Below are positions 9,832 to 23,713 of a DNA stretch of 64,000 bases, piece by piece. A program made the translations under genes and the position numbers. Numbering within the stretch: the first letter of the stretch is position 1; the number at the start of each line of letters is the position of its first letter. This stretch comes from an uncultured Bacteroidia bacterium (GTDB lineage Bacteria > Bacteroidota > Bacteroidia > Bacteroidales > UBA932), in the NCBI GenBank assembly GCA_902801885.1, contig CADCJX010000009.1:61183-125182 (forward strand), written 5' to 3'. Under the pieces are notes generated by a model. That model saw nothing but the letters and a program-made list of their open reading frames with translations, was not told the DNA's origin and did not search any database.

Positions 9832-11922
9832 TTAGGAGAATTCTATCTCCTTGATTATCCGTTTCATACCCGCATATTTATCAAGCACCCACATCACGAA
9901 ACGGATGTCGGTGTTGATGCATTTGTTGTAGCCTTCCGTGTAAGAGGTGTCACTCGCGAGAGATTCCAGGTTCCCGTCGAAAGCAAGTCCGATCAGGTCG
10001 CCTTCTTCATTCAGGACAGGACTGCCTGAATTGCCCCCGGCTATGTCGTTGTCCGAAATGAAATCAACTATCATCCCATGCCTTCTTTTGCCGACCCTGA
10101 AACCCCAGCGGCCCCAATTATCCTTTTCAAGAAGGTATTTCTGCCTGGAATTGAGGTTGTAGTCATGATTTGAAGGATCGTACTTCTGAAGTATGCCGGC
10201 AGGGGTGGTATACCAATCTTGCCAGACTCCATCATTTGGGCTGAAGCCACCGACACGGCCATAGCTGATCCTCATCGTGGAATTTGCATCAGGATACTGA
10301 AGCTCTCCCTTATGGAGTCGCATCCAGTAAATGGCCCTTTTGTACTCGGTTTCCAATTCTCCGGCCCGAGCCCAATCCTGCTGGTGACCATTCCTTTCGT
10401 TGAAGACAGAGATAGGGGAATCAGAGATGAACTTCCTGAGAGGATCATCCTTGAGATCATCCATGGATTCCATAGCTTCGATCCTGGACTTGGAAGACAC
10501 CAGGCTGTTGCTCCAGAGGTATTCTGTCATAGCCGTGAAATCATAGCCGAAGCGGTCCTGGATCCACCTCTGGTAGGGGCCGTAGTAGTAGTTGTCGAGA
10601 TTGGTGAAATATTCCCTGAGGGCATATTCAAGAAGATCCTTCTCCACTGCAGGGTCTGTCTCTGCAAGGCCTGAGAGGAGGACTTCCTTCGCCCTCTTCA
10701 CGTCCTTGGAGTTCCAGGCTCGGAGAAGATAGGTTCCGATGACGGTGCCCCGAAGAATGGTTTCACGGAAGATCACCTTGTCCCTTTCAACTGCGGCCGT
10801 CTTTGAATATGCCCTATCGAGATCCTCCAGCAAGTTTCCCCAACGGTCCGAACGGGTGCTTCCTCCGCCAATCCAAGACCTCAGCTGTTTCTCCTGGGCG
10901 ACCTTCTCGTCTTTGACTCGAAAGCGCTTGTAGCACTGGGCCATGCCCACATTGTTTACCTGGGAGTTGCTGATGCTGAAATAGCGGTCGGAGTACTTGA
11001 GCCTTACCACGGGATCGACATCCATTCTGCGGGCCATTATCTTCAGCTGGTTGCCCCTGATCTCGTTGGAGACCGGAAGCACGACCTTCTCCTGGTAGTC
11101 TATCTCGGAGGAAGAGGCGTACCTGTCCGTCCTGCCGGGATAGCCGATGACCATGGTGAATGAGCCCGGGGAATAGCCTTTCAGGGACACTTTCAGGTTT
11201 TTCTCACCCTGAAGCGGAACTCCGTTCTCGTAGATCCTGTAGATCGTGAAATCGCAATTGTGACGCGGCCAGGTGAAATTATCCCCTTCCCCGCCGAAAT
11301 AACCTATGCACACGGGAGGGGCGGCCACCAGGCGGATGTCGGTGTAGACCTTGTAGGCGCTTATGTAAGCTTTTTCTCCAGCCCACATCTCGCTCAAGAT
11401 GCACCGCAGCCCGGTACTTTCGGAATATCTCTTCTCGAGTGAAGAGGCTATCTTCCTCATGGAAAGAGGCTTGCCGTCTTCATCCAGCTGTTTTTTAAGG
11501 GCCGCGACCTCGTCGGTGACTTCAAAGACCCTCTTGAGGAAATACATCGATTCCCCTTCCACCGGAAGTTCCTGCTCCGAAGTCATGGCCCAGTAGCCTT
11601 CCTCAAGATAGTCATGTTCGGGAGTGCTGAGAGCGGCAATGTTGGAATAGGCGCAATGATGGTTGGTTATGACCAGGCCGTTGTCCGAAATAAGACTGCC
11701 GGTACAATAGAACCCTATCGATACCACAGCATCCGAGACGGCAGTCCCGGGTGCATCGGCATTGTAGATCTCCTTAGCTGACAATTTCAGGCCACGAGCC
11801 TTCATGTTCTTCTCCAGGGCAGCATTGATGTCCTGGATAAGCCACATACCTTCGTCGGCGTGCATCGACACCGACACCAATAGAACCGCTAAGGAAAGAA
11901 AACCCTTGAGAATCTTCATCAT
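9832..11922 (-). CDS. S46-family dipeptidyl-peptidase (DPP7-like)
   Basis: 696-residue secreted serine peptidase that removes N-terminal dipeptides in the periplasm. It has a signal peptide, the catalytic His in LVITNHHCAY (residue 88 or 89), an Asp in HNCDFTIYR, and the Ser in GGNSGSPVLNE. The specificity position in LAFDGN carries Gly; from memory DPP7 has Gly here while the acidic-specific DPP11 has Arg, so broad or hydrophobic specificity is expected. I placed the start at the ATG overlapping the upstream stop (TAATG); a second ATG follows directly. An upstream extension of 17 residues within the previous gene is rejected. Confidence 0.88.
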   Translation of the reverse strand: MMKILKGFLSLAVLLVSVSMHADEGMWLIQDINAALEKNMKARGLKLSAKEIYNADAPGTAVSDAVVSIGFYCTGSLISDNGLVITNHHCAYSNIAALSTPEHDYLEEGYWAMTSEQELPVEGESMYFLKRVFEVTDEVAALKKQLDEDGKPLSMRKIASSLEKRYSESTGLRCILSEMWAGEKAYISAYKVYTDIRLVAAPPVCIGYFGGEGDNFTWPRHNCDFTIYRIYENGVPLQGEKNLKVSLKGYSPGSFTMVIGYPGRTDRYASSSEIDYQEKVVLPVSNEIRGNQLKIMARRMDVDPVVRLKYSDRYFSISNSQVNNVGMAQCYKRFRVKDEKVAQEKQLRSWIGGGSTRSDRWGNLLEDLDRAYSKTAAVERDKVIFRETILRGTVIGTYLLRAWNSKDVKRAKEVLLSGLAETDPAVEKDLLEYALREYFTNLDNYYYGPYQRWIQDRFGYDFTAMTEYLWSNSLVSSKSRIEAMESMDDLKDDPLRKFISDSPISVFNERNGHQQDWARAGELETEYKRAIYWMRLHKGELQYPDANSTMRISYGRVGGFSPNDGVWQDWYTTPAGILQKYDPSNHDYNLNSRQKYLLEKDNWGRWGFRVGKRRHGMIVDFISDNDIAGGNSGSPVLNEEGDLIGLAFDGNLESLASDTSYTEGYNKCINTDIRFVMWVLDKYAGMKRIIKEIEFS

Positions 11923-13667
11923 TATCTCACGCGAAGCACATCGCCATGATCCTGGATCACGGCTTCCTTCCATTTCTCAGTGTAGCCAGGATTAGTTATC
12001 CCGGCGGGTGTACCCTTATTGTACTTGGAATGCTTGAAATTGCCATCCTCATCCTGGGCCTTGACATTACCGTCGATGAACTTGACGGTGATCATCTCCT
12101 CAAGGTCCACCCAGGCCCAGAACTGCTTCTGTGCAGTGCTGACGGAATAGTCGGTAAGGAGCTTCTTGACAGGGGCAAACCAATCCTTGCTGTCAAGACC
12201 TTTCTTTTCAGCCTTGGCAAGGATCGAATTGTAGGCGGCAAGGGCTTTGGCATCCATCTCCGCCACCTTGGTGAACATCTGCTCGTTCTCGAACTTGTCG
12301 ATAGCCTCTCGTACGGTCGGAGCCATCATGTTGTAGGCCTTGTAGCAATCGTTCGCAACGCGGTTGTTGATCCAGAAGGATGCTGTCTTGGAATATTCCA
12401 ACATATTGCCGTTACCCTCCTTGAAACACTCGGGGACCTCGTTGGTGTTGGAATAGATAGGGGTAAGATAGGAAGTCGCGGCGTCATCGGTTCCGAACCA
12501 GATGATTCCGCCGACCACGTCGGGAAGGTCATGCCTGGACTGGGCTACGAACCAGAAACCTGTCTGCTGGGTAGCGATCGCCCTCTCGTTGACATAGCTC
12601 CAGCCATCCTTGGAGAAGTTCATCGGTCTCCACCTGTAAGGGAGGGCGTTGCCGCCGGCTCCGATGTCGGTGGTCATGTCGAGAGGAGTTCCCTCGAAAT
12701 GGTCCCTCATGGCATCAGCCACATTCTTGACAGTAATCTTCTTGGAAGGCTTTACGAACAGGGGCATCCTATGGGAAAGATTCTTCCCGGTGATGTAGTC
12801 GTAGTAAGCGGAAGCGGGCTCGGTGACCATCTTTCCGTCCTTCTCGTAGGTGAACTCACCGCCGGTCAGGATGTTGAATGCACTCCAGGCCCTTGCGTCA
12901 CAGGCTCTTGCACCACCGAAATCGACCGGGCCGAAAGCAGCGCTGTAATCAAAGTCCTCATCCTTGCCGCTGAACCATCCGTGCTTCCTTGCGAAATCGA
13001 TCATTCCGGGGGCGAAGATGCAGTTCTCGGGATCGTTCTGGGGGAAGGTCTGTATGCGGGCCTGGTTGGCGTGCGAGCAGATGTAACCGTCAGGAATCCT
13101 GATGGCCACGTAGTTGATACCCTTCTCATCCGGTCCCTTTCCTACAAGATCCATGACCCAGGCCTCGTTCTTGTCGGCGATCGAGAAAGTTTCACCAGAA
13201 GACGCGTAACCATATTCATTGGCAAGGTCAATGATGGTCTGGATGGCTTCGCGGGCGGTCTTGGCTCTCTGCAGGGTGATGTAGATCAATGAGCCGTAGT
13301 CCATGATTCCCTTGGGATCGTGGAGCTCCCTGCGGCCTCCCCATGTGGTCTCGCCTATGATGAGCTGGTACTCGTTCATGTTGCCGACAGTCTTGTATGT
13401 CCTCTCAACCTGAGGTATGCTTCCAAGCGGCCTGTAGGAGTCCCAGTCGATAACATCAAGCATGGTACCAGGCTTCCAGATGGCTGCGGGATGGAAATAC
13501 AGCTCGCCATAAAGCACATGGGAGTCTGCAGCATAGGAGATTATGTTCGAATTGTCAGCGCTTGCACCCCTTGTGACTATGATGTTGGTACAAGCTTTGC
13601 TTTTGCTTCCTCCGGACAGTAGGAGGGCGGCTGCCAACACTGCTCCGATGATTGATCTTCCGGTCAT
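11922..13667 (-). CDS. C69-family dipeptidase (Ntn-hydrolase)
   Basis: 581-residue secreted aminopeptidase/dipeptidase of the C69 (U34) family. After a signal peptide, Cys26 in KACTNIIVTRGAS is the expected N-terminal nucleophile released by self-processing. Other family segments are MNEYQLIIGETTWGGR and GETFSIADKNEAWVMD. Its stop overlaps the start of the S46 peptidase by one base (TAATG), which suggests translational coupling: two exopeptidases made together to digest peptides. It heads the leftward operon; no TAnnTTTG element is seen upstream on this strand. Confidence 0.88.
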   Translation of the reverse strand: MTGRSIIGAVLAAALLLSGGSKSKACTNIIVTRGASADNSNIISYAADSHVLYGELYFHPAAIWKPGTMLDVIDWDSYRPLGSIPQVERTYKTVGNMNEYQLIIGETTWGGRRELHDPKGIMDYGSLIYITLQRAKTAREAIQTIIDLANEYGYASSGETFSIADKNEAWVMDLVGKGPDEKGINYVAIRIPDGYICSHANQARIQTFPQNDPENCIFAPGMIDFARKHGWFSGKDEDFDYSAAFGPVDFGGARACDARAWSAFNILTGGEFTYEKDGKMVTEPASAYYDYITGKNLSHRMPLFVKPSKKITVKNVADAMRDHFEGTPLDMTTDIGAGGNALPYRWRPMNFSKDGWSYVNERAIATQQTGFWFVAQSRHDLPDVVGGIIWFGTDDAATSYLTPIYSNTNEVPECFKEGNGNMLEYSKTASFWINNRVANDCYKAYNMMAPTVREAIDKFENEQMFTKVAEMDAKALAAYNSILAKAEKKGLDSKDWFAPVKKLLTDYSVSTAQKQFWAWVDLEEMITVKFIDGNVKAQDEDGNFKHSKYNKGTPAGITNPGYTEKWKEAVIQDHGDVLRVR

Positions 13668-15929: not shown

Positions 15930-17801
15930 TTAATTCTCATTCTCTCTGTATTCCTCCCACTTCTTCAGGACCGCGAGCAGTTCATCTGCATGGGGGTTTG
16001 ATTCAAGTGATTTGAAAGAAAACTGTATGGCAACGGGGCAGTGCCATTCGGCGGCCAGGCTGTCGGCAAAGTTCCACATCTCGGGAGTTGTCTCGGGCCT
16101 GATGTTCCACCAGCCGAAGTCAAGGCGAGTCATGTTATCGGCCATCTTCGGGGCTTCGGCATAAGGGAATTCAAGTATCTTATCCTTGAATACTTCAGGA
16201 GGGAATACGTCAAAAGCATTTGCACCTGCCTGGAGATGCCAGCCGAAATGGGATTTTGCAGCTCCTTCCGTGAAGAGAGGCATCTTCCCAAGCTTGGATG
16301 CGACCCTGTACTGAGCGAGGGAAACATTTATTCCGGTCGGGGGATGGACACCTTCAGATCCGTCAAGGTAGAGGAACTCAAAGCCGCAGTCATATATTCG
16401 TGCGATCTTTTCAGCGATTTCATCCTGGAGATCATTGTCCTGGTTGATGTAGATGGAGGTTCCCTTTCCGAACTCACTGAGGTCCAGGATTCCCCCTGTC
16501 TCACCTTTGCGATGGGCTACGGCATCTGTACCGAACGCACCGCGTTTGACGCCTGTGAACTTATAAGGAGGTTCCGTGGTGTATCCTTCATAGGCAAAGC
16601 CTTCGCCGCCGAAAGCAAGGACTCTGGTATAGTCGTGAAGAGGCGAATCCACGGGGTTCTCTTCCACGAAGATTTCCTTCACCTCGCCGGAAGCAGGGAT
16701 AGGTTCCTTGAGGGTGAACAGCCTCTTGCGGTTGAGCCGGGCGTCGATGGAGGGCCTGACATAGCGGCTCTCCACGCCGACGTGCGTCTGGAGCGTGTGG
16801 AATCCGGGGGTGATCCCAGCTGCCTTGACCTTATCGATCATATTCCTTAGGTCATCATAGCCGCCGGGATAGTTATCATTCAGATCATAGTCTCCCATGA
16901 GCCTGTACCCCCGAGCCTTTACGAAGCAGGGGTAATAGAACAGCATCATCTTGAGACCGGCTTTGCGGGCGATGGCGATATGCTGGTCAATGTTCGACGG
17001 ATTGGCATCGGATGTCCAGTAAATGGAGCGGTTGAGCATCGGTGAGCGACGGCTCTGAACACCTCTGGGCAGGTCCAGAGCAGCTTCAAAACCATCCATT
17101 ACCTCAAGGAAAGACTCCTTGCCGTCAGCTACGATTATCGCAGCCGAGCCACCGCGAAGTTTCTTTCCTGAATATAGGTCCGCAGTAAGAACCCTACCGC
17201 CGTCACGGTCTTCATGCCAGATCAGCGACCAAGGGTCGCACGCAGCCACACAGACGGCAGAGACATCATCCCACATGCAGTTCAGCCATTCTCCGTAATG
17301 CCTGCGCTCTTTGACAGGCAACTGAAGGATCCTGAATTCGGCCACCGGGGGAAGGTCCATGGCCTGGTTGCCGTAGTCTTCCGGATCACAGATGAAATCT
17401 TCCAGGATGAACCTAAGATAGCCTGCTCCTTTTTCCACTTTGACCACGGCCTTGTAGGGGGCCGTTTCAAAACCGACGGTAAGCCTCTCACCATCCCAGG
17501 AGAGGGAATCCGCCTTGTAGGTAGTCCTTGTGTTTGGATGCTGGAGCTTCGTCTCATTGTTGAATGGCCTGTCCTGGGTGGAGGAAAACAAAGGCACGTT
17601 TGCACCTTCGATGAGCATTTCCTCGTTGGTGCCCTTTACGACGAGGGATCGAGCCACTGCATCTTTACCTAAGGTCAGCTTGAATGATTCGGTTTCGAGG
17701 ACGATGCCGTCCTCTTCGCTCAGGCCTCCTGAACAGCCGTGAACAAGTGGCAACGCCATGACCGTCGCCACCAGGATTCCTATTAATGATCTGATTCTCA
17801 T
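15930..17801 (-). CDS. lipoprotein with glycosidase-like TIM barrel
   Basis: 623-residue predicted lipoprotein (lipobox LVHGC, Cys23). The first 200 residues look like a beta-sandwich. The middle and C-terminal part looks like a TIM barrel, with LNRSIYWTSDANPSN, GITPGFHTLQTHVG and CGFEFLYLDGSEGVHPP; the Asp of YLDG sits where clan-D glycosidases place a nucleophile. I cannot assign a CAZy family, so this is a putative glycoside hydrolase. A weak -7 match (TAACTTTA, 17809-17816 on this strand) lies just upstream, so it may be transcribed apart from the M49-like gene before it. Confidence 0.6.
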   Translation of the reverse strand: MRIRSLIGILVATVMALPLVHGCSGGLSEEDGIVLETESFKLTLGKDAVARSLVVKGTNEEMLIEGANVPLFSSTQDRPFNNETKLQHPNTRTTYKADSLSWDGERLTVGFETAPYKAVVKVEKGAGYLRFILEDFICDPEDYGNQAMDLPPVAEFRILQLPVKERRHYGEWLNCMWDDVSAVCVAACDPWSLIWHEDRDGGRVLTADLYSGKKLRGGSAAIIVADGKESFLEVMDGFEAALDLPRGVQSRRSPMLNRSIYWTSDANPSNIDQHIAIARKAGLKMMLFYYPCFVKARGYRLMGDYDLNDNYPGGYDDLRNMIDKVKAAGITPGFHTLQTHVGVESRYVRPSIDARLNRKRLFTLKEPIPASGEVKEIFVEENPVDSPLHDYTRVLAFGGEGFAYEGYTTEPPYKFTGVKRGAFGTDAVAHRKGETGGILDLSEFGKGTSIYINQDNDLQDEIAEKIARIYDCGFEFLYLDGSEGVHPPTGINVSLAQYRVASKLGKMPLFTEGAAKSHFGWHLQAGANAFDVFPPEVFKDKILEFPYAEAPKMADNMTRLDFGWWNIRPETTPEMWNFADSLAAEWHCPVAIQFSFKSLESNPHADELLAVLKKWEEYRENEN

Positions 17802-17843: not shown

Positions 17844-19442
17844 CTATTTAAAATTGAACCTGATGTCAGCGGGAATCTTCTCAAGGCCCAGGTTCAAGCG
17901 ATCGGCATCGTAGTCGGAATTCAGCTTGGAATACTGGGCTTCAAATTGCCTGGCGAAGGTCTCGTCTCCGGTCGCCTGTGTCTTCAGTACGAGGGCAGTC
18001 AGTCCGGAAAGAGCAGCTTCCATATTCTTATAATCCAGATCATACTGTCCGGAAGCATTGCGCTTGAAAGCACCTGCCTCTTTCAGGTAATTGTAGATTA
18101 TGATGTTTGCACGACCCAGCGCCGTTCCCTCTCCAAATCGTTCGGAACGCACCAGGGAGGCGAAGAACGTAGCCAGGGCATCTTCTTTCGTGAAGAGGTG
18201 ATGGATGTCGAAGTGTTTCTGGAGGTTACAGACCATCAGGACTCCTGCGGCGTTTGCTTTCACCTCCTCAAGGGTGAGAGCTGCGCTGCCTAGGGCTTCT
18301 TCCACGCTGCCTTTGCCGTTGACGGTCTCCTTGACTCCCAATCCATGCGCCACTTCGCGGAAAACGATATTCCAGAAGAAGGCATCTGCAGAAAGGTGTT
18401 CTGCATCATCAGGCTTGAGCAGGATCCTGCCGGTTGGACCGACGATATGGTTGTACTTGATGTGGATAATGTTCTCCAACAGGATGGTACGAGTGCCGCG
18501 GTCACGCTGGACGTCACTGTCGAAAGGCAGGTTCAAGGCGATAACCTTCACGCCGGCATTGGCTTTTCCGGCATAGTAGAGGGCATCACAAGAGAAGATG
18601 TTGGAACCGGCTCCAGGCTGGAATGTCTTGTAGGCGGGATCGCCCGGGAGATCCTCCTGGAATTCCCCGATACGTGAAACATATTGCATCAACTCCTTGG
18701 TGTGAGTCTCATTCTTCAGGAGGACATAAGCCTCGTAAGAACGCTTGATCCCCATCAGCTGGTCATCCGTCACCTCGTTGGGACCGATAACCAGGTCCAT
18801 CTTGCTGTCTTCCATGTCAAGCCAGGCCAGGGAGCTCTCGTAGTAGTTGTCTGTCCTGAGGGCTTCCGCCTTGCTCAGCAGATAAGCAGCCACGCTGGGC
18901 TTTATCGTGATGTCGGCAGCTGCTTTCAGGTAATTGCCGATCTTGTCGATGTGATCCTTGTAGGCATCGTGGTACCAGACAGTCTCCAGGGAGCCGTCTG
19001 CTGCACGACGGATGAGGGTGTAAGGGCTGTTCTTGTCAGGGTTGTCCCAAGCATTGAACTCTTCCTTGGTCATATCAGCCGGGTAGAAACCAGCTCCCGG
19101 GAGACGGTCGGAATAGCCTTCCACGAAAGATTTCCCACTCGTACGATCCCAGGGACCATAGTTGATTTCAGCGAAGGTCTTCTGGACGGGATCTTTTATC
19201 CCATCCAGGAGAGTTTGCTTGTCGCCGAAATACTGCTCCCAGTAGATGGCATCCACTTCATCTGCGGCAAAGCGGTAGAGATTGAGTACTTCCTTCCCAT
19301 TGTCAGTGATACCTCTGAGGTCAGGAGCCTCGATGTCCACTACAGAATAATTTGCCACATCGCGGTCGAATGGTGATTTCGTTTCATGGCAGGAAACCAC
19401 TGCAATCAACACGGGGACAGCCAGAATCAGATTCTTATTCAT
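17844..19442 (-). CDS. M49 (DPP III)-like lipoprotein with damaged zinc motif, copy B
   Basis: 532-residue lipoprotein (lipobox AVVSC, Cys18). It is similar over its whole length to a Bacteroidetes family of M49-like zinc peptidases (INYGPWDR, SVWYHDAY-like segments, GLGVKETVNGKGS). In active relatives, as I recall them, the motif is HEVAHGLG followed by EEGKAD. Here it is REVAHGLG (362-369) and EEVKAN (392-397): the first zinc-binding His is Arg, while the catalytic Glu363, His366 and a Glu ligand remain. Loss of peptidase activity is expected. The frame is intact and full length, so a non-catalytic role such as binding peptide or ligand is plausible. It lies directly after the DASS transporter and is paralogous to copy A at 21002-22603. 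Confidence 0.75.
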   Translation of the reverse strand: MNKNLILAVPVLIAVVSCHETKSPFDRDVANYSVVDIEAPDLRGITDNGKEVLNLYRFAADEVDAIYWEQYFGDKQTLLDGIKDPVQKTFAEINYGPWDRTSGKSFVEGYSDRLPGAGFYPADMTKEEFNAWDNPDKNSPYTLIRRAADGSLETVWYHDAYKDHIDKIGNYLKAAADITIKPSVAAYLLSKAEALRTDNYYESSLAWLDMEDSKMDLVIGPNEVTDDQLMGIKRSYEAYVLLKNETHTKELMQYVSRIGEFQEDLPGDPAYKTFQPGAGSNIFSCDALYYAGKANAGVKVIALNLPFDSDVQRDRGTRTILLENIIHIKYNHIVGPTGRILLKPDDAEHLSADAFFWNIVFREVAHGLGVKETVNGKGSVEEALGSAALTLEEVKANAAGVLMVCNLQKHFDIHHLFTKEDALATFFASLVRSERFGEGTALGRANIIIYNYLKEAGAFKRNASGQYDLDYKNMEAALSGLTALVLKTQATGDETFARQFEAQYSKLNSDYDADRLNLGLEKIPADIRFNFK

Positions 19443-19464
19443 GATGAATATTTTCTTGTGAGTA

Positions 19465-20970
19465 TTAGACGATATTTAACGACCCTGCTGCGAAAAGCAC
19501 CAGGTATCCAAGCACCACGCTGATAAGGCCGATGAGGAGACCCATCCTAGCCATGTCCTTCTGCTGGATAAGGTTGGTTGCATAAGCCAGTGCGTTCGGA
19601 GGAGTGGAGATAGGCAGGATCATGGCGCTGCTGGACGCTATGGCGACTCCGATCAGTACGGTGGAGGTGCCGCCGACAGCCGAAAGCTTGTCACCCATGG
19701 CGGTACAGACTACAACCAGGATAGGCATGAGCAGCGCTGCAGTCGCAGAATGGGAGATCAGGTTGGAAAGTCCGTAACACAACAGGCCGGAAAGGATGAC
19801 GATCAGAAGGGGCGAGAAGTTGCCGAATGGAATTGCACGGACCACCAGGGCTGCAAGTCCGGAACCGTTCATGGCATAGCCCATGGCAAAACCTCCGGCA
19901 ACCATCCAGATGACCGACCAGTTGATTTCCTCAAGGTCGTATTTGCTGATGATACCTGCCAGGGCAAAGACCGCAAAGGGTATCAGGGCCACCGTGTAGG
20001 TGTTGATGCCGGTAACAGTGTCCATCATCCAGAGGAGGATGGTGACAACCATGGTAATGATTACGAGAGTGGTGTCCTTGCCCTTCTTCATCTCACCGTC
20101 AATCTTCAGTTCGATTGTCTTCTGGGTAAAGGGGAATACCTTCTTCAGCAACGTCCAGGCAATAAGGATCATGATAATTACCAGAGGTACCATGAACAGC
20201 ATCCACTGTCCGAAGCCGATTCCCAGGTTAAGGCCTTCGGGATCATTCAGGTACTTCAAGGCAATTGTATTCGGAGGCGTGCCGATAGGGGTGCCCATGC
20301 CACCAAGATTGGCAGCGATCGGGATGCTGAGTGCCATGGCTGTCCTTCCCTTCCCAGCCTCGGGGAGCTGCTTGAAAACAGGTGTGAGGAAAGTCAGCAT
20401 CATGGCGGTAGTGGCTGTGTTGCTGATAAACATCGAGAACAGGGCGGTCACCAGCATGAAGCCCAGAAGGATGTTCTCGCTCTTTTTTCCGAAAGGAGTG
20501 AGCAGCACACGGGCAAGGTGGACGTCCAGGCCGGTCTTCGTGGTAGCTATGGCGAGTACGAATCCTCCGATGAAGAGCATGACCACAGGGTCTGCGAAAC
20601 TGGCCATCACCTGCTTGTAGCTGAGGAGCTGCCCTGCAGAGTCAGGATTGCAGATCCATTTGATTCCTGAATCGGAGGTACAAAGCAGGAGGAAGACCAT
20701 GATGGACACCGAGGTCGCCCAGGCGGGGACCAATTCGAACACCCACATGAGGGTGGCGTAAACGAATATTGCTATGATCCTTTGCTGTACCTGGGTAAGA
20801 CCGTCAATCCCGAAGGATTCAGTCGGCAGGAACCAGAGGACCAGGACTATGATTGCGACGAAAATGAGGCCGAGGCTCTTTTTCTTTAATATCGAGGGGT
20901 CGAATCTATTGTGCTGACGCAATTTGTGCATCTGTTCAACCAGATTGAAACCAGTGAAATTCTTGAACAT
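19465..20970 (-). CDS. DASS/SLC13-family sodium-coupled anion transporter
   Basis: 501-residue inner-membrane transporter with about 11 hydrophobic segments. The first half has the signature SNT (183-185, in MFISNTATTAMM) and GTPPN; the second half has STPPNALAYATN but SHS (406-408) where family members usually carry a second SNT, which contributes to sodium and carboxylate binding. Family substrates are di- and tricarboxylates or sulfate. It is sandwiched between two M49-like lipoproteins with 22- and 31-base gaps, so the three are probably one operon and the lipoproteins may present the substrate to it. Confidence 0.85.
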   Translation of the reverse strand: MFKNFTGFNLVEQMHKLRQHNRFDPSILKKKSLGLIFVAIIVLVLWFLPTESFGIDGLTQVQQRIIAIFVYATLMWVFELVPAWATSVSIMVFLLLCTSDSGIKWICNPDSAGQLLSYKQVMASFADPVVMLFIGGFVLAIATTKTGLDVHLARVLLTPFGKKSENILLGFMLVTALFSMFISNTATTAMMLTFLTPVFKQLPEAGKGRTAMALSIPIAANLGGMGTPIGTPPNTIALKYLNDPEGLNLGIGFGQWMLFMVPLVIIMILIAWTLLKKVFPFTQKTIELKIDGEMKKGKDTTLVIITMVVTILLWMMDTVTGINTYTVALIPFAVFALAGIISKYDLEEINWSVIWMVAGGFAMGYAMNGSGLAALVVRAIPFGNFSPLLIVILSGLLCYGLSNLISHSATAALLMPILVVVCTAMGDKLSAVGGTSTVLIGVAIASSSAMILPISTPPNALAYATNLIQQKDMARMGLLIGLISVVLGYLVLFAAGSLNIV

Positions 20971-21001
20971 GGTGTAGTATATTTACGATAGCATTAATAG
21001 A

Positions 21002-22603
21002 TTATTCATAAGAAAAGCGGATATCGACAGGAATTCCGGCGCTTTCCAGGACCCGTTTGTCGGAAAGGCTTTCCGGACCGACGACTCCGTACTTGGTGAG
21101 CAAGGCATTGGCCCCTTCCACGTCACCATGGGCCTGGATTTCAAGGATCCTTGCCCCAAGGGTTTCAAGTGCCTTCCAGGTCTTGTCGTAGTCGATGCTG
21201 TAACGGCCCGATGGATTCCAGGTAATGGACTTGCTTTCAAGCAGGTAGTTGTAGACGATGATGTTTGCTATGCCGGTAGGGTCCGCTGCGCCGAAACGGG
21301 TTGAGCGGATGGTGTTGGTGACAAAGGTCGTAAGCACATCTTCTTTCTGGAAAAGGGCTGAAATATTGTAAGCTTCAGCTTCCTGAGCGCAAAGCCAGGT
21401 ACCAAGCACATTCGACTTTGCTTTTTCCATGGCCAGGGCCTCATTGCCGAGAGCCTCGGTAACGGTTCCCTTTCCATTCACTGTCTCTTTTACTCCCAGG
21501 CCTTTGGCAATCTCACGGAAGACGATGAGCCAATAGAAAGCACTTGCATCAACATGGGGCAGATAGGCTTCCTCAAGAAGGGCATTCCCTACAGGATGGA
21601 CCGTACGATTGAATTTTTCACGTATGACGTTGTCGAAGATGATGGTACGGGTTCCCAATTCCTCCTGGACCCTGGCATCATAAGGGAAATTGATACCGAT
21701 GACCTTGAATCCAGCATTGGTATAGCCGCTGCAATAGAGCACGTTACATGAGAAGATATCGGACTGGGCTCCCGGAACGAAACTGTGGTTGGCCGGATTG
21801 CCTGGCAACATTTCCTGCAGTTCTGGCATACGTGCAGACAAGGCGTTGAGTTCCTCCGTACGCTGGAGGTTTTTCAATAGTACATAAGCTCCGTATGAAG
21901 CCTTGGTTCCGTAAAGAGCGTCATCCACGGCTTCGATAGGGCCGAGAACAAGATCCATCTTGCTGTCGGTCATCTCCAGCCAGGCCTTGTTGCTATTGTA
22001 ATAATCATCCGTCTTGAGACCTTCTACCAACTCAAGGAGATAGTTGCGGACACTCTCCTTAATGGTAACATCTGCAGCACGCTTCAGGTATTCCTCTATC
22101 TTGCTGATGGTCTCTGCGTAGGCATCATGGTACCAGACGGACTTGAGACCGCCGTCAGATGTACGCTGGACCAAAGTATAAGGGCTGTTCTTGTCAGCAT
22201 CATTCCATGAGAGGAATTCCTCCGCGGTCATGTCTGCAGGATAGAAACAAGCTCCAGCCGGCTTGCTGCCGTAGCCCGGGAGGAAAGGCTTACCGTCGAT
22301 GCGGTCCCAAGGGCCGTAGTTGATTCCGGCGTAAAGTTTTTCGGAAGGATCCGAAAGAGATCCGAGGAAGGCTTCCCCGTCACCGAAATACTGCTGCCAG
22401 TAGATCTTGTCCACCTCGTCTGCAGCCATACGGTACAGTCTCAGGACTTCTTTTCCGTTGTCGGTAATGCCCGTAAGGTCTGGGGCAGGAATGGTCACCT
22501 GGGCATAATTCTCCACGAGCCTGCCAACGTCTGCCCTGTTCTGCGAACAAGACACTGCGACCATGGTCAGGAGTGACAATACAACAACTGTGATATTCTT
22601 CAT
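21002..22603 (-). CDS. M49 (DPP III)-like lipoprotein with lost zinc ligands, copy A
   Basis: 533-residue lipoprotein (lipobox AVSC, Cys19), clearly paralogous to copy B. The zinc motif is more degraded: REIAKGLG (363-370) in place of HExxHGLG and MEKAKSN (392-398) in place of the EEGKAD-type motif. Both His ligands and the Glu ligand are therefore replaced (Arg, Lys, Lys), while the Glu between them persists. Conserved family stretches such as YAGINYGPWDR and VKETVNGKGTV remain. It is first in the leftward operon, with a TAACTTTG element at 22627-22634 and the 72-bp tandem duplication upstream. Catalysis is very unlikely. Confidence 0.75.
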   Translation of the reverse strand: MKNITVVVLSLLTMVAVSCSQNRADVGRLVENYAQVTIPAPDLTGITDNGKEVLRLYRMAADEVDKIYWQQYFGDGEAFLGSLSDPSEKLYAGINYGPWDRIDGKPFLPGYGSKPAGACFYPADMTAEEFLSWNDADKNSPYTLVQRTSDGGLKSVWYHDAYAETISKIEEYLKRAADVTIKESVRNYLLELVEGLKTDDYYNSNKAWLEMTDSKMDLVLGPIEAVDDALYGTKASYGAYVLLKNLQRTEELNALSARMPELQEMLPGNPANHSFVPGAQSDIFSCNVLYCSGYTNAGFKVIGINFPYDARVQEELGTRTIIFDNVIREKFNRTVHPVGNALLEEAYLPHVDASAFYWLIVFREIAKGLGVKETVNGKGTVTEALGNEALAMEKAKSNVLGTWLCAQEAEAYNISALFQKEDVLTTFVTNTIRSTRFGAADPTGIANIIVYNYLLESKSITWNPSGRYSIDYDKTWKALETLGARILEIQAHGDVEGANALLTKYGVVGPESLSDKRVLESAGIPVDIRFSYE

Positions 22604-22784: not shown

Positions 22785-22792
22785 TATATTTG
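22785..22792 (+). promoter_or_regulatory. -7 element (TATATTTG) for the LysR gene
   Basis: TATATTTG lies directly after the second repeat unit and 18 bases before the ATG at 22811. It overlaps an in-frame TTG at 22790, which argues against that TTG as a start. Confidence 0.55.
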
Positions 22793-22810
22793 AAAACGAT
22801 CGGCAATAAA

Positions 22811-23713
22811 ATGGAATTACGTCAATTGAAATACTTCGTGGAAGTAGCGCGTCTGGGGAGTTTCTCCATGGCTTCAAAGGCATTGTTCATAACCCAGAGT
22901 ACCATCTCCCAGCAGATTCAGAAACTGGAGGAGGAACTGGGGGTGGAACTTCTTTCGCGCGACACACGCCACGTGGTCCTGAGCGATTATGGGGAACAGT
23001 TCTATCCCTGCGCCGTCCAGGTCCTGGAAGAGGCCAGGGCCGGTGTCGAACGGATCCGGGATGTCAATGCATTGAAAATCGGCACGCTCAGCATCGGGGC
23101 AACATATTCATTCGGCCCGCTGCTCAAACGGACGGTTCAGGATTTTTACAAGCAGTTCCCCAACATACGGCTCAACCTGATCATCACTTCCAAAGAGGAA
23201 CTGCGGCAAAAACTGCTCGACCGGGAACTGGACCTGCTGCTCACCTACAAGTCGCCGCTCGGGGACGACCGCATCGAGTCCCACCTGCTCTTCCAGAGCC
23301 GTCTCTGCCTGATCGGTCGCATAGACGAATTGAAGGGGGTGGGTAAGGAGGTGTCCGTCAGGGACCTTGCAAGGTTCCCTTTGGCTTTGCCCTCCAGGGG
23401 CCTTCAGGCGCGGGACACCCTCGAAGACGTCCTTTTCGCCCAGAATGTCAACCTGGACATACGCCTGGAAATCAACAGTGTACGAACGCTGCTGGACTTG
23501 GTGGCGAACACTCCGCTGGTGACCATCCTATCAGAGGAATCCATCCAGCAGGTGCAGGGTTTCGAGGCAGTCCCGATCGCCCATCCGGACGGGCGCATGG
23601 ATGGCTGCTATCACTACTTGAAAGGTGCCTACCACAAGATGGCAGCCCAGAAGTTCATCGAACTCCTGAAAGAGAACAATTCATTCAACCAGGCCTTCTC
23701 TACGGTACTCTGA
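22811..23713 (+). CDS. LysR-family transcriptional regulator
   Basis: 300-residue LysR-type regulator: N-terminal winged HTH (MELRQLKYFVEVARLGSFSM, ITQSTISQQIQKLEEELG, residues 1-60), helical linker, then a periplasmic-binding-protein-like effector domain (about 88-295). It is divergent from the M49-like/DASS operon and probably controls it through the duplicated operator region. The ATG at 22811 is chosen because the family always begins with MELRQLxYF and the promoter element lies just upstream. The effector is unknown. Confidence 0.9.
   Translation: MELRQLKYFVEVARLGSFSMASKALFITQSTISQQIQKLEEELGVELLSRDTRHVVLSDYGEQFYPCAVQVLEEARAGVERIRDVNALKIGTLSIGATYSFGPLLKRTVQDFYKQFPNIRLNLIITSKEELRQKLLDRELDLLLTYKSPLGDDRIESHLLFQSRLCLIGRIDELKGVGKEVSVRDLARFPLALPSRGLQARDTLEDVLFAQNVNLDIRLEINSVRTLLDLVANTPLVTILSEESIQQVQGFEAVPIAHPDGRMDGCYHYLKGAYHKMAAQKFIELLKENNSFNQAFSTVL

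Follow-up and report, generated by a model that had tools for sequence, protein, structure and literature searches.

The stretch of DNA analysed here (the window, 64,000 nucleotides from an uncultured Bacteroidia bacterium, assembly GCA_902801885.1, contig CADCJX010000009.1) contains two predicted lipoproteins related to peptidases of family M49, one on either side of a carrier gene of the DASS family. Lipoprotein B (positions 21002-22603, minus strand, 533 amino acids) and lipoprotein A (17844-19442, minus strand, 532 amino acids) are both encoded by intact open reading frames (ORFs). The translation of B scores 31 bits against PF03571 (cut-off 21), and that of A 21.1 bits, barely above the same cut-off. 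Between them lies an SLC13-like, sodium-coupled anion carrier (19465-20970, minus strand), which matches TIGR00785 with 244.6 bits (cut-off 198.6) as well as PF00939/PF03600 and retrieves VcINDY and other SLC13 chains in a phmmer search; its first SNT motif is retained and the second reads SHS. A LysR-type regulator (22790-23713, plus strand, PF03466/PF00126) is divergent from B. A preliminary description of the window had already recognized this arrangement of two lipoproteins flanking a DASS carrier with a LysR gene nearby, and both frames are indeed intact.

A and B are full-length relatives of the short branch of dipeptidyl peptidase III (DPP III, M49), as had been proposed from the sequence. 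In phmmer, A aligns end to end with short DPP III over ~500 residues that include both halves of the zinc site (6EOM, E=1e-72; 5ZUM, E=2e-66), and B, 52% identical to A, is alignable over its own length. The AlphaFold model of A (pLDDT 89.7, pTM 0.90) matches 5zum with a TM of 0.89 and 6eom with 0.81 in Foldseek, and that of B (pLDDT 90.3, pTM 0.88) matches the same structures with 0.88 and 0.85. At E<=0.001 each model has 23 matches, all of them DPP III or PolE structures; no fold of a substrate-binding protein (SBP) of the DctP, TAXI or TTT kind is among them. The PolE proteins, Fe/pterin-dependent enzymes of which one has been solved with L-Ile, are remote fold relatives.

The zinc ligands of the Caldithrix enzyme are His379, His383 and Glu412, within the motifs HEISH and EECKAD, and its substrate site includes Glu240, Tyr242, Asn321 and Asn324 (PMC5805324). 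Residue numbers given below are those of this enzyme, taken from ungapped stretches of the phmmer alignment. In alignments with relatives, and for A also with 6EOM and 5ZUM, the zinc motif of active DPP III (HExxH/HExxxGH) is absent from both lipoproteins. The former HExxH motif reads REVAHGLG in A (18336-18359, minus strand) and REIAKGLG in B (21494-21517, minus strand), and the former EECKAD motif reads EEVKAN in A (18252-18269, minus strand) and EKAKSN in B (21410-21427, minus strand). The spans first assigned to the two sites, 18252-18359 and 21410-21517, are right; in the motif then quoted for B, MEKAKSN, the part EKAKSN aligns and the leading Met falls outside. In A a single ligand is lost (His379 to Arg), the second His and the Glu ligand of EExxxD/E being retained. 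In B all three are replaced, by Arg, Lys and Lys. The earlier statement that 'copy A', which was left undefined, had lost all three ligands holds for 21002-22603; the protein at 17844-19442 has lost one.

To place these changes, 291 M49-like ORFs were gathered from collected loci (numbered with the prefix L), of which 200 are distinct: 56 zinc types (His/His/Glu) and 144 Arg types, in all of which, A and B included, the first zinc His is Arg. The Arg types comprise 62 R-H sequences (Arg/His), with Glu (55), Lys (4), Asp (2) or Arg (1) at the third site, and 82 B-like sequences, 79 with Arg/Lys/Lys and three with Gln at the second site (Arg/Gln/Lys). The equivalents of Tyr242, Asn324 and His460, the last of which we take to be human His568, are present in 56/56 zinc types and in 0/144 Arg types. 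The Asp of EECKAD, kept in all 56 zinc types, is Asn in 137/144 Arg types. The former catalytic Glu380, together with Glu411 and Asn321, is retained in 144/144 Arg types, and Glu240 in 142/144. Both the uniformity of Arg/Lys/Lys in B-like sequences (79/82) and the unbroken retention of Glu380 exceed what chance would give.

These residues bear on the idea that A is still an enzyme, in which the equivalents of Glu380, His383 and Glu412 would hold another metal or support non-metal chemistry. Among the R-H types the second His is invariant, as is the catalytic Glu (62/62 each), and most have the Glu ligand (55/62); the Foldseek link to the Fe/pterin PolE enzymes also speaks for this idea. It is made improbable by the disappearance of Tyr242, Asn324 and His460 from every Arg type, by the Asp-to-Asn change in EECKAD, and by the presence in B of Lys at both other ligand sites (79/82).

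The zinc and Arg types are separated by one change on a tree of 83 representatives, calculated with seven motif columns excluded and with a quick support method. B forms a single clade, both branches having a support of 100, and the R-H types form a paraphyletic intermediate grade. On this tree the His-to-Arg change arose once, ahead of the split between A and B, in keeping with the earlier view that it is common to both and predates the duplication. The relatives that came from a scan seeded with B are mostly from metagenome-assembled genomes of ruminant-gut Bacteroidales. The zinc types closest to the Arg types (L182, L238) are from the same genus as these, possibly Cryptobacteroides. In that genus, 197 of 300 genomes searched have a match of either type. 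At the order level, matches at E<=1e-130 were obtained in 9/393 genomes, a strict cut at which weaker Arg types outside the genus may be missed; two of the nine, from another family, are Arg types, and both have an AspT gene and a LysR gene upstream. At the phylum level, 31/296 genomes match at E<=1e-110, the host genome included. The distinct places read there have HEVAHGLG in 16/16 and EEGKAD/EEAKAD in 10; in the other six the pattern stopped at an earlier string, leaving the second motif unsettled. No DASS, AspT or gdhA gene was found beside these 16 places within the stretches examined. All three ligands being retained in 56/56 zinc types, the objection that the wider family never used these His and Glu positions does not hold, and the alignments indicate that the family ancestrally uses these zinc ligands. 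Zinc-type M49 domains also occur in long stop-to-stop frames of distant Bacteroidota (L286:2405-5560, 1052 amino acids; L287:3050-5488, 813 amino acids).

Decay of the Arg-type genes into pseudogenes carried along by their neighbourhood might be suspected from the loss of the zinc ligands and from a median ratio of nonsynonymous to synonymous substitution (dN/dS) that is slightly above that of the zinc types. The medians (Nei-Gojobori) are 0.063 for zinc types (54 pairs), 0.083 for R-H types (57 pairs) and 0.087 for B (57 pairs), measured on pairs 80-95% identical with a median dS of 1.2-1.3, which is near saturation. No internal stop was found among the matches listed in the genus search. The Arg-type genes appear from these values to be under strong purifying selection, which bears out the earlier suggestion of selected, intact frames and differs from the neutral evolution with frequent frameshifts that had been considered as its opposite. 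New residues have moreover become fixed, and the linkage to carriers described below survives rearrangement. Decay, to which hardly any probability can be given, is contradicted by the intact frames among the matches listed and by the low dN/dS.

A carrier gene accompanies nearly all Arg-type genes. Counting a carrier when it is fused, adjoining or within 4.5 kb, a DASS or AspT gene is found with 133/139 Arg-type genes (R-H 53/59, R-K 77/77, R-Q 3/3) versus 0/50 zinc types. The flanks of the zinc types reach at least 4.5 kb in 33 genes and 1.3-4.5 kb in 17, and three R-H, two R-K and six zinc genes were left out because their flanks are short. The host genome (2.46 Mb) contains three DASS genes, two of which adjoin Arg-type genes, and one AspT gene. 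Chance neighbourhood is ruled out by the contrast between 133/139 and 0/50 and by the presence of three DASS genes per 2.46 Mb. The R-H partners are DASS in 36 cases (five fused) and AspT in 17; AspT was identified with PF06826 in two examples and TIGR01625 in one, the others being assigned by phmmer with the PF06826 pair. At one locus (L188:4505-9139) an Arg-type gene has DASS genes on both sides, and its protein is the longest end branch of the tree.

Several gene layouts can be distinguished, in which presence was scored at any flank length and absence only where the flank was sufficient. In type 1, the layout of the window, B, a DASS gene (SNT/SHS) and A are grouped, frequently with a divergent LysR gene. 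A check of gene order, recommended at the outset, found 18 distinct loci that contain A, B and DASS, arranged in four ways (T standing for the transporter): B-T-A in 12, A-T-B in three, T-A-B in two and T-B-A in one. In one of the 12 B-T-A loci (L027:7482-9060) the DASS gene that lies between B and A is broken up over two overlapping ORFs, through a frameshift or an assembly error. In type 2, gdhA, a B or R-H gene and a DASS gene (mostly SNT/SNS) are followed by a protein of ~440 amino acids that may be outer-membrane-barrel-like, judging from its sequence (for instance L074:9003-10346 and L202:9065-11752). This protein has no Pfam or NCBIfam match, and a sequence search of the PDB returned only an antibody chain at E=0.18, which is not credible. 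Among determinable cases it lies within 4.5 kb of 26/28 B, 6/6 R-H and 4/4 fused genes, compared with 1/32 in type 1, 0/13 in AspT loci and 0/33 in zinc types. Likewise, gdhA occurs within 2.5 kb in 32/33 B type-2, 5/8 R-H type-2 and 2/4 fused loci, and elsewhere in 0/47 type-1, 1/14 AspT and 0/33 zinc loci; since all these loci go back to one origin, the Fisher value for the counts (2e-39) is not read as a probability. In most type-2 loci the glutamate dehydrogenase gene is ~100 bp from the Arg-type gene (L058:4479-5840, L202 and 38 others), in the same orientation in 25 and the opposite one in 15. In the AspT layout, AspT stands beside an R-H gene, and LysR is present in 6/13 such tabulated loci. 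The second SNT motif of the carriers follows these layouts, being SHS in 58/59 distinct type-1 DASS proteins and SNS in 39/43 of type 2 and 4/4 fused ones. The SHS motif of type-1 carriers suggests a different substrate or ion site.

In five genomes, the DASS carrier and an Arg-type domain follow each other in one frame. These fusions measure 1006 (L222), 1000 (L223), 1026 (L224) and 1008 amino acids (L225), the fifth (L226, 788 amino acids) being cut by the end of its contig; the first three were also examined with Pfam. A short linker past the last hydrophobic or membrane segment forms the junction. Four fusions placed on the tree form two non-sister pairs, with a support of 86 for the branch separating them, a pattern consistent with one or two fusion events. 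A lipobox-like signal, detected by a simple pattern, is present in none of the five fusions and in 54/57 stand-alone R-H, 71/82 B and 46/56 zinc proteins. The C-terminus of VcINDY has been described together with changes at the extracellular surface (PMC7553777). With the VcINDY C-terminus at that surface, the fused domain should face the periplasm, like an exported lipoprotein. The Arg-type protein is accordingly predicted to be an extracytoplasmic partner of a secondary carrier, whether encoded beside it or joined to it in one chain; its export is predicted from the lipobox-like pattern.

The regulator is a less regular neighbour. LysR genes lie within 4.5 kb of 34 Arg-type genes and of 0/33 zinc types, and a further 60 Arg-type genes whose flanks span 4.5 kb or more have none, which rules LysR out as a constant partner. 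The preliminary description, which had placed the lipoproteins in a context of transporter and LysR, was therefore right about the carrier, whose link is conserved and extends to fusion, and only partly right about the regulator. The LysR association would suit a periplasmic sensor that reports the ligand to regulation and does not deliver it. This role is very unlikely, given the 60 genes lacking a LysR neighbour and the fact that the natural fusions are to the carrier; LysR proteins are, besides, cytoplasmic.

The pocket of the Arg types was defined as 20 columns: those of the residues that PMC5805324 names, those of the ligand set and that of His460. Its mean net charge, metal excluded, is -6.9 in zinc types, -3.1 in R-H types and -1.1 in B, and that of the whole protein is nearly constant (-21, -20 and -19, respectively). 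The shift over the 20 columns is +3.85 for A and +5.84 for B, and is matched by 90/20000 random column sets for R-H and 10/20000 for B; it is taken as a supporting observation only. The entropy of the B pocket is below that of random columns (54/20000, or 195/20000 without the ligand columns), and the same is true of the 44 sequences that constitute A proper (230/20000). All 44 have Arg379, His383, Glu412, Glu240, Asn321 and Phe324, with Lys (43) or Arg (1) at position 310, and their partners are DASS in 23 cases and AspT in 14. As far as the alignments go, A proper keeps the same pocket while the carrier family changes. Better conservation of the pocket than of the remaining protein is not a general property of the Arg types: it is true for B and for A proper and fails in the other R-H types.

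Two explanations of this pocket deserve to be compared. In the first, a non-binding accessory subunit, the dead peptidase would stabilize, insert or gate the carrier and the pocket would be a salt-bridge network in place of zinc. There is a human analogue in 4F2hc and rBAT, glycosidase-like heavy chains that serve amino-acid carriers. Linkage and fusion fit such a structural role as well as they fit binding, A and B both accompany one carrier in the 18 loci mentioned above, and the pocket of the R-H types taken together is not clearly above average in conservation. The near-constant pocket of A proper is nevertheless paired with two unrelated carrier families, which a carrier-specific interface explains poorly; the amine-site residues Glu240 and Asn321 are retained almost throughout, and conservation in the pocket of B exceeds that of random columns. 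This explanation is considered rather unlikely, at a level that still gives it real weight because linkage and fusion suit it equally.

In the second explanation, dead M49 peptidases have been turned into SBP-like subunits of secondary carriers, binding being predicted; this is held to be somewhat probable. Human DPP III closes on its ligand, and its inactive E451A variant has been crystallized with peptides and binds angiotensin-II (PMC4824452). Since an inactive M49 enzyme still binds peptides, a dead one is plausible as a binding protein. Residues 316, 391 and 394 of the human enzyme hold the N-terminus of the ligand (PMC4824452). The retention of Glu240 and Asn321 suggests an amino group in the ligand, and the replacement of zinc by Arg and Lys suggests a carboxylate. 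Di- and tricarboxylates and acidic amino acids are handled by carriers of the DASS family (PMC7553777) and, going by the names of the family models, of the AspT family. The lipoproteins would be tethered to the outer face of the inner membrane, next to a carrier of the DASS or, elsewhere, of the AspT family. Their two-lobed clam-shell would still shut on a small ligand, whose amino end would be gripped by the equivalents of Glu240 and Asn321 and whose carboxylate would be gripped by the residues standing in place of zinc, an Arg and, in B, two Lys besides; the ligand would then be handed over to the carrier. Acidic amino acids, dicarboxylates and short acidic peptides would be the likeliest ligands, and the glutamate/2-oxoglutarate family the likeliest for the subset beside glutamate dehydrogenase.

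A number of observations weigh against the binding role. Six of the 59 R-H genes (L206, L208, L249, L250, L253 and L254) have no nearby carrier, and the Arg types have one origin and belong mostly to one genus, so that the loci are not independent. The type-1 layout of the window lacks gdhA, and the hint of glutamate is therefore not directly applicable to it. When the three ligand columns are removed, the charge shift drops to +2.69 for A and +1.88 for B and is reached by random sets in 389/20000 and 1701/20000 cases, so that for B it is no longer significant. Pocket conservation relative to random columns is not significant in all R-H types together (2414/20000), nor in the 18 R-H sequences outside A proper, which are mostly basal (5903/20000). 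Finally, 75 of the 82 B-like kept copies come from a scan seeded with B using six patterns, of which NEALAMEK covers the third-ligand Lys (412) and FKVIGINF covers Asn321; the conservation of these two residues in B is thus partly selected for. No scan pattern overlaps the first-ligand Arg or the second-ligand Lys, and the remaining seven copies, obtained through whole-genome protein searches, are Lys/Lys in six cases and Gln/Lys in one.

Transcription on the minus strand would run from B (22603-21002) through the DASS gene (20970-19465) and A (19442-17844) to a predicted protein of 623 amino acids (15930-17801, minus strand), which begins 42 bp past A and is a possible downstream member of the operon. 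It also follows A in locus L005. Searches of Pfam, NCBIfam and PDB sequences gave no match for it; by eye, it may resemble a TIM-barrel hydrolase. A C69-family dipeptidase-like protein (PF03577) is encoded a few kb downstream (11922-13667). Elsewhere in the host genome, a third copy, C (REIAHALG/EDAKAN), stands beside a second DASS gene, and there is one remote M49-like place with 27% identity across 197 residues.

Comparison with known systems helps to situate these proteins. With the short M49 enzymes of Caldithrix abyssi (6EOM) and Corallococcus (5ZUM), they have in common the full-length sequence, the fold and the catalytic Glu; the Arg types differ in the loss of the first zinc His, Tyr242, Asn324 and His460, and B in that of all ligands, as well as in being lipoproteins paired with or fused to carriers. 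The window carrier is a member of the SLC13/DASS family (VcINDY, LaINDY), retains the first SNT motif and is distinguished by the SHS motif of type 1 and by its extracytoplasmic partner or fused domain; the main text of PMC7553777 on DASS carriers mentions no accessory or substrate-binding protein. The nearest precedent in logic is TAXI-GltS (PMC12344293, 2025), where the genes of a lipoprotein and of a sodium-coupled carrier are likewise linked, and where other bacteria have the two naturally fused. In that system the partner is a genuine SBP domain for which glutamate binding has been measured; in the present one an M49 pseudo-peptidase, for which binding is predicted, accompanies DASS or AspT, and no part is common beyond general carrier mechanics. 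TRAP and TTT systems also achieve anion uptake through a carrier and an extracytoplasmic partner. The membrane parts of TRAP systems have the same fold as DASS (PMC12344293), and Arg-carboxylate selectivity is reported for TRAP SBPs (PMC4646407). Their binding protein is unrelated to the present one, and a small membrane subunit was not noticed beside the DASS genes, although no dedicated search was made. SLC3 proteins (4F2hc/rBAT) also join a dead-enzyme ectodomain to an amino-acid carrier, with a glycosidase fold, in eukaryotes, and with a role in trafficking or stability. Secondary transport that depends on a binding protein is already known, and the window system is not a member by homology, the comparison with SBP folds being negative.

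No description of this lipoprotein-carrier system is among the matches listed in the open-licence PubMed Central literature, where no paper was found that joins peptidase M49 with a symporter or with a pseudopeptidase. To our knowledge, neither the M49 binding fold nor the DASS and AspT families have been reported to work in this way. The sequences themselves establish that the zinc and catalytic residues were lost, that the Arg types arose once on the tree, that their pocket has new conserved residues, and that they are linked, and in some genomes fused, to carriers. Whether they add up to a wholly new class of two-component secondary transporters in Bacteroidales is an evenly balanced question. 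In such a class, the metal site of a zinc exopeptidase would have been rebuilt as a cationic (Arg/Lys/Lys) ligand site, and the protein would serve as the substrate-capturing subunit of unrelated DASS and AspT carriers, fused to DASS in some lineages. In this clade the site of a zinc enzyme appears to have been converted step by step into a basic one without metal, and RHE, RHK and RQK are still found beside RKK in living relatives. The authors of the TAXI-GltS study ask why SBPs are not more often tied to secondary carriers, suggest that an elevator feature is perhaps needed, and regard further classes as a test (PMC12344293); DASS carriers are elevators (PMC7553777). If the M49-like lipoproteins do bind substrate, they would constitute such a further class, in which the binding protein has an unrelated origin.

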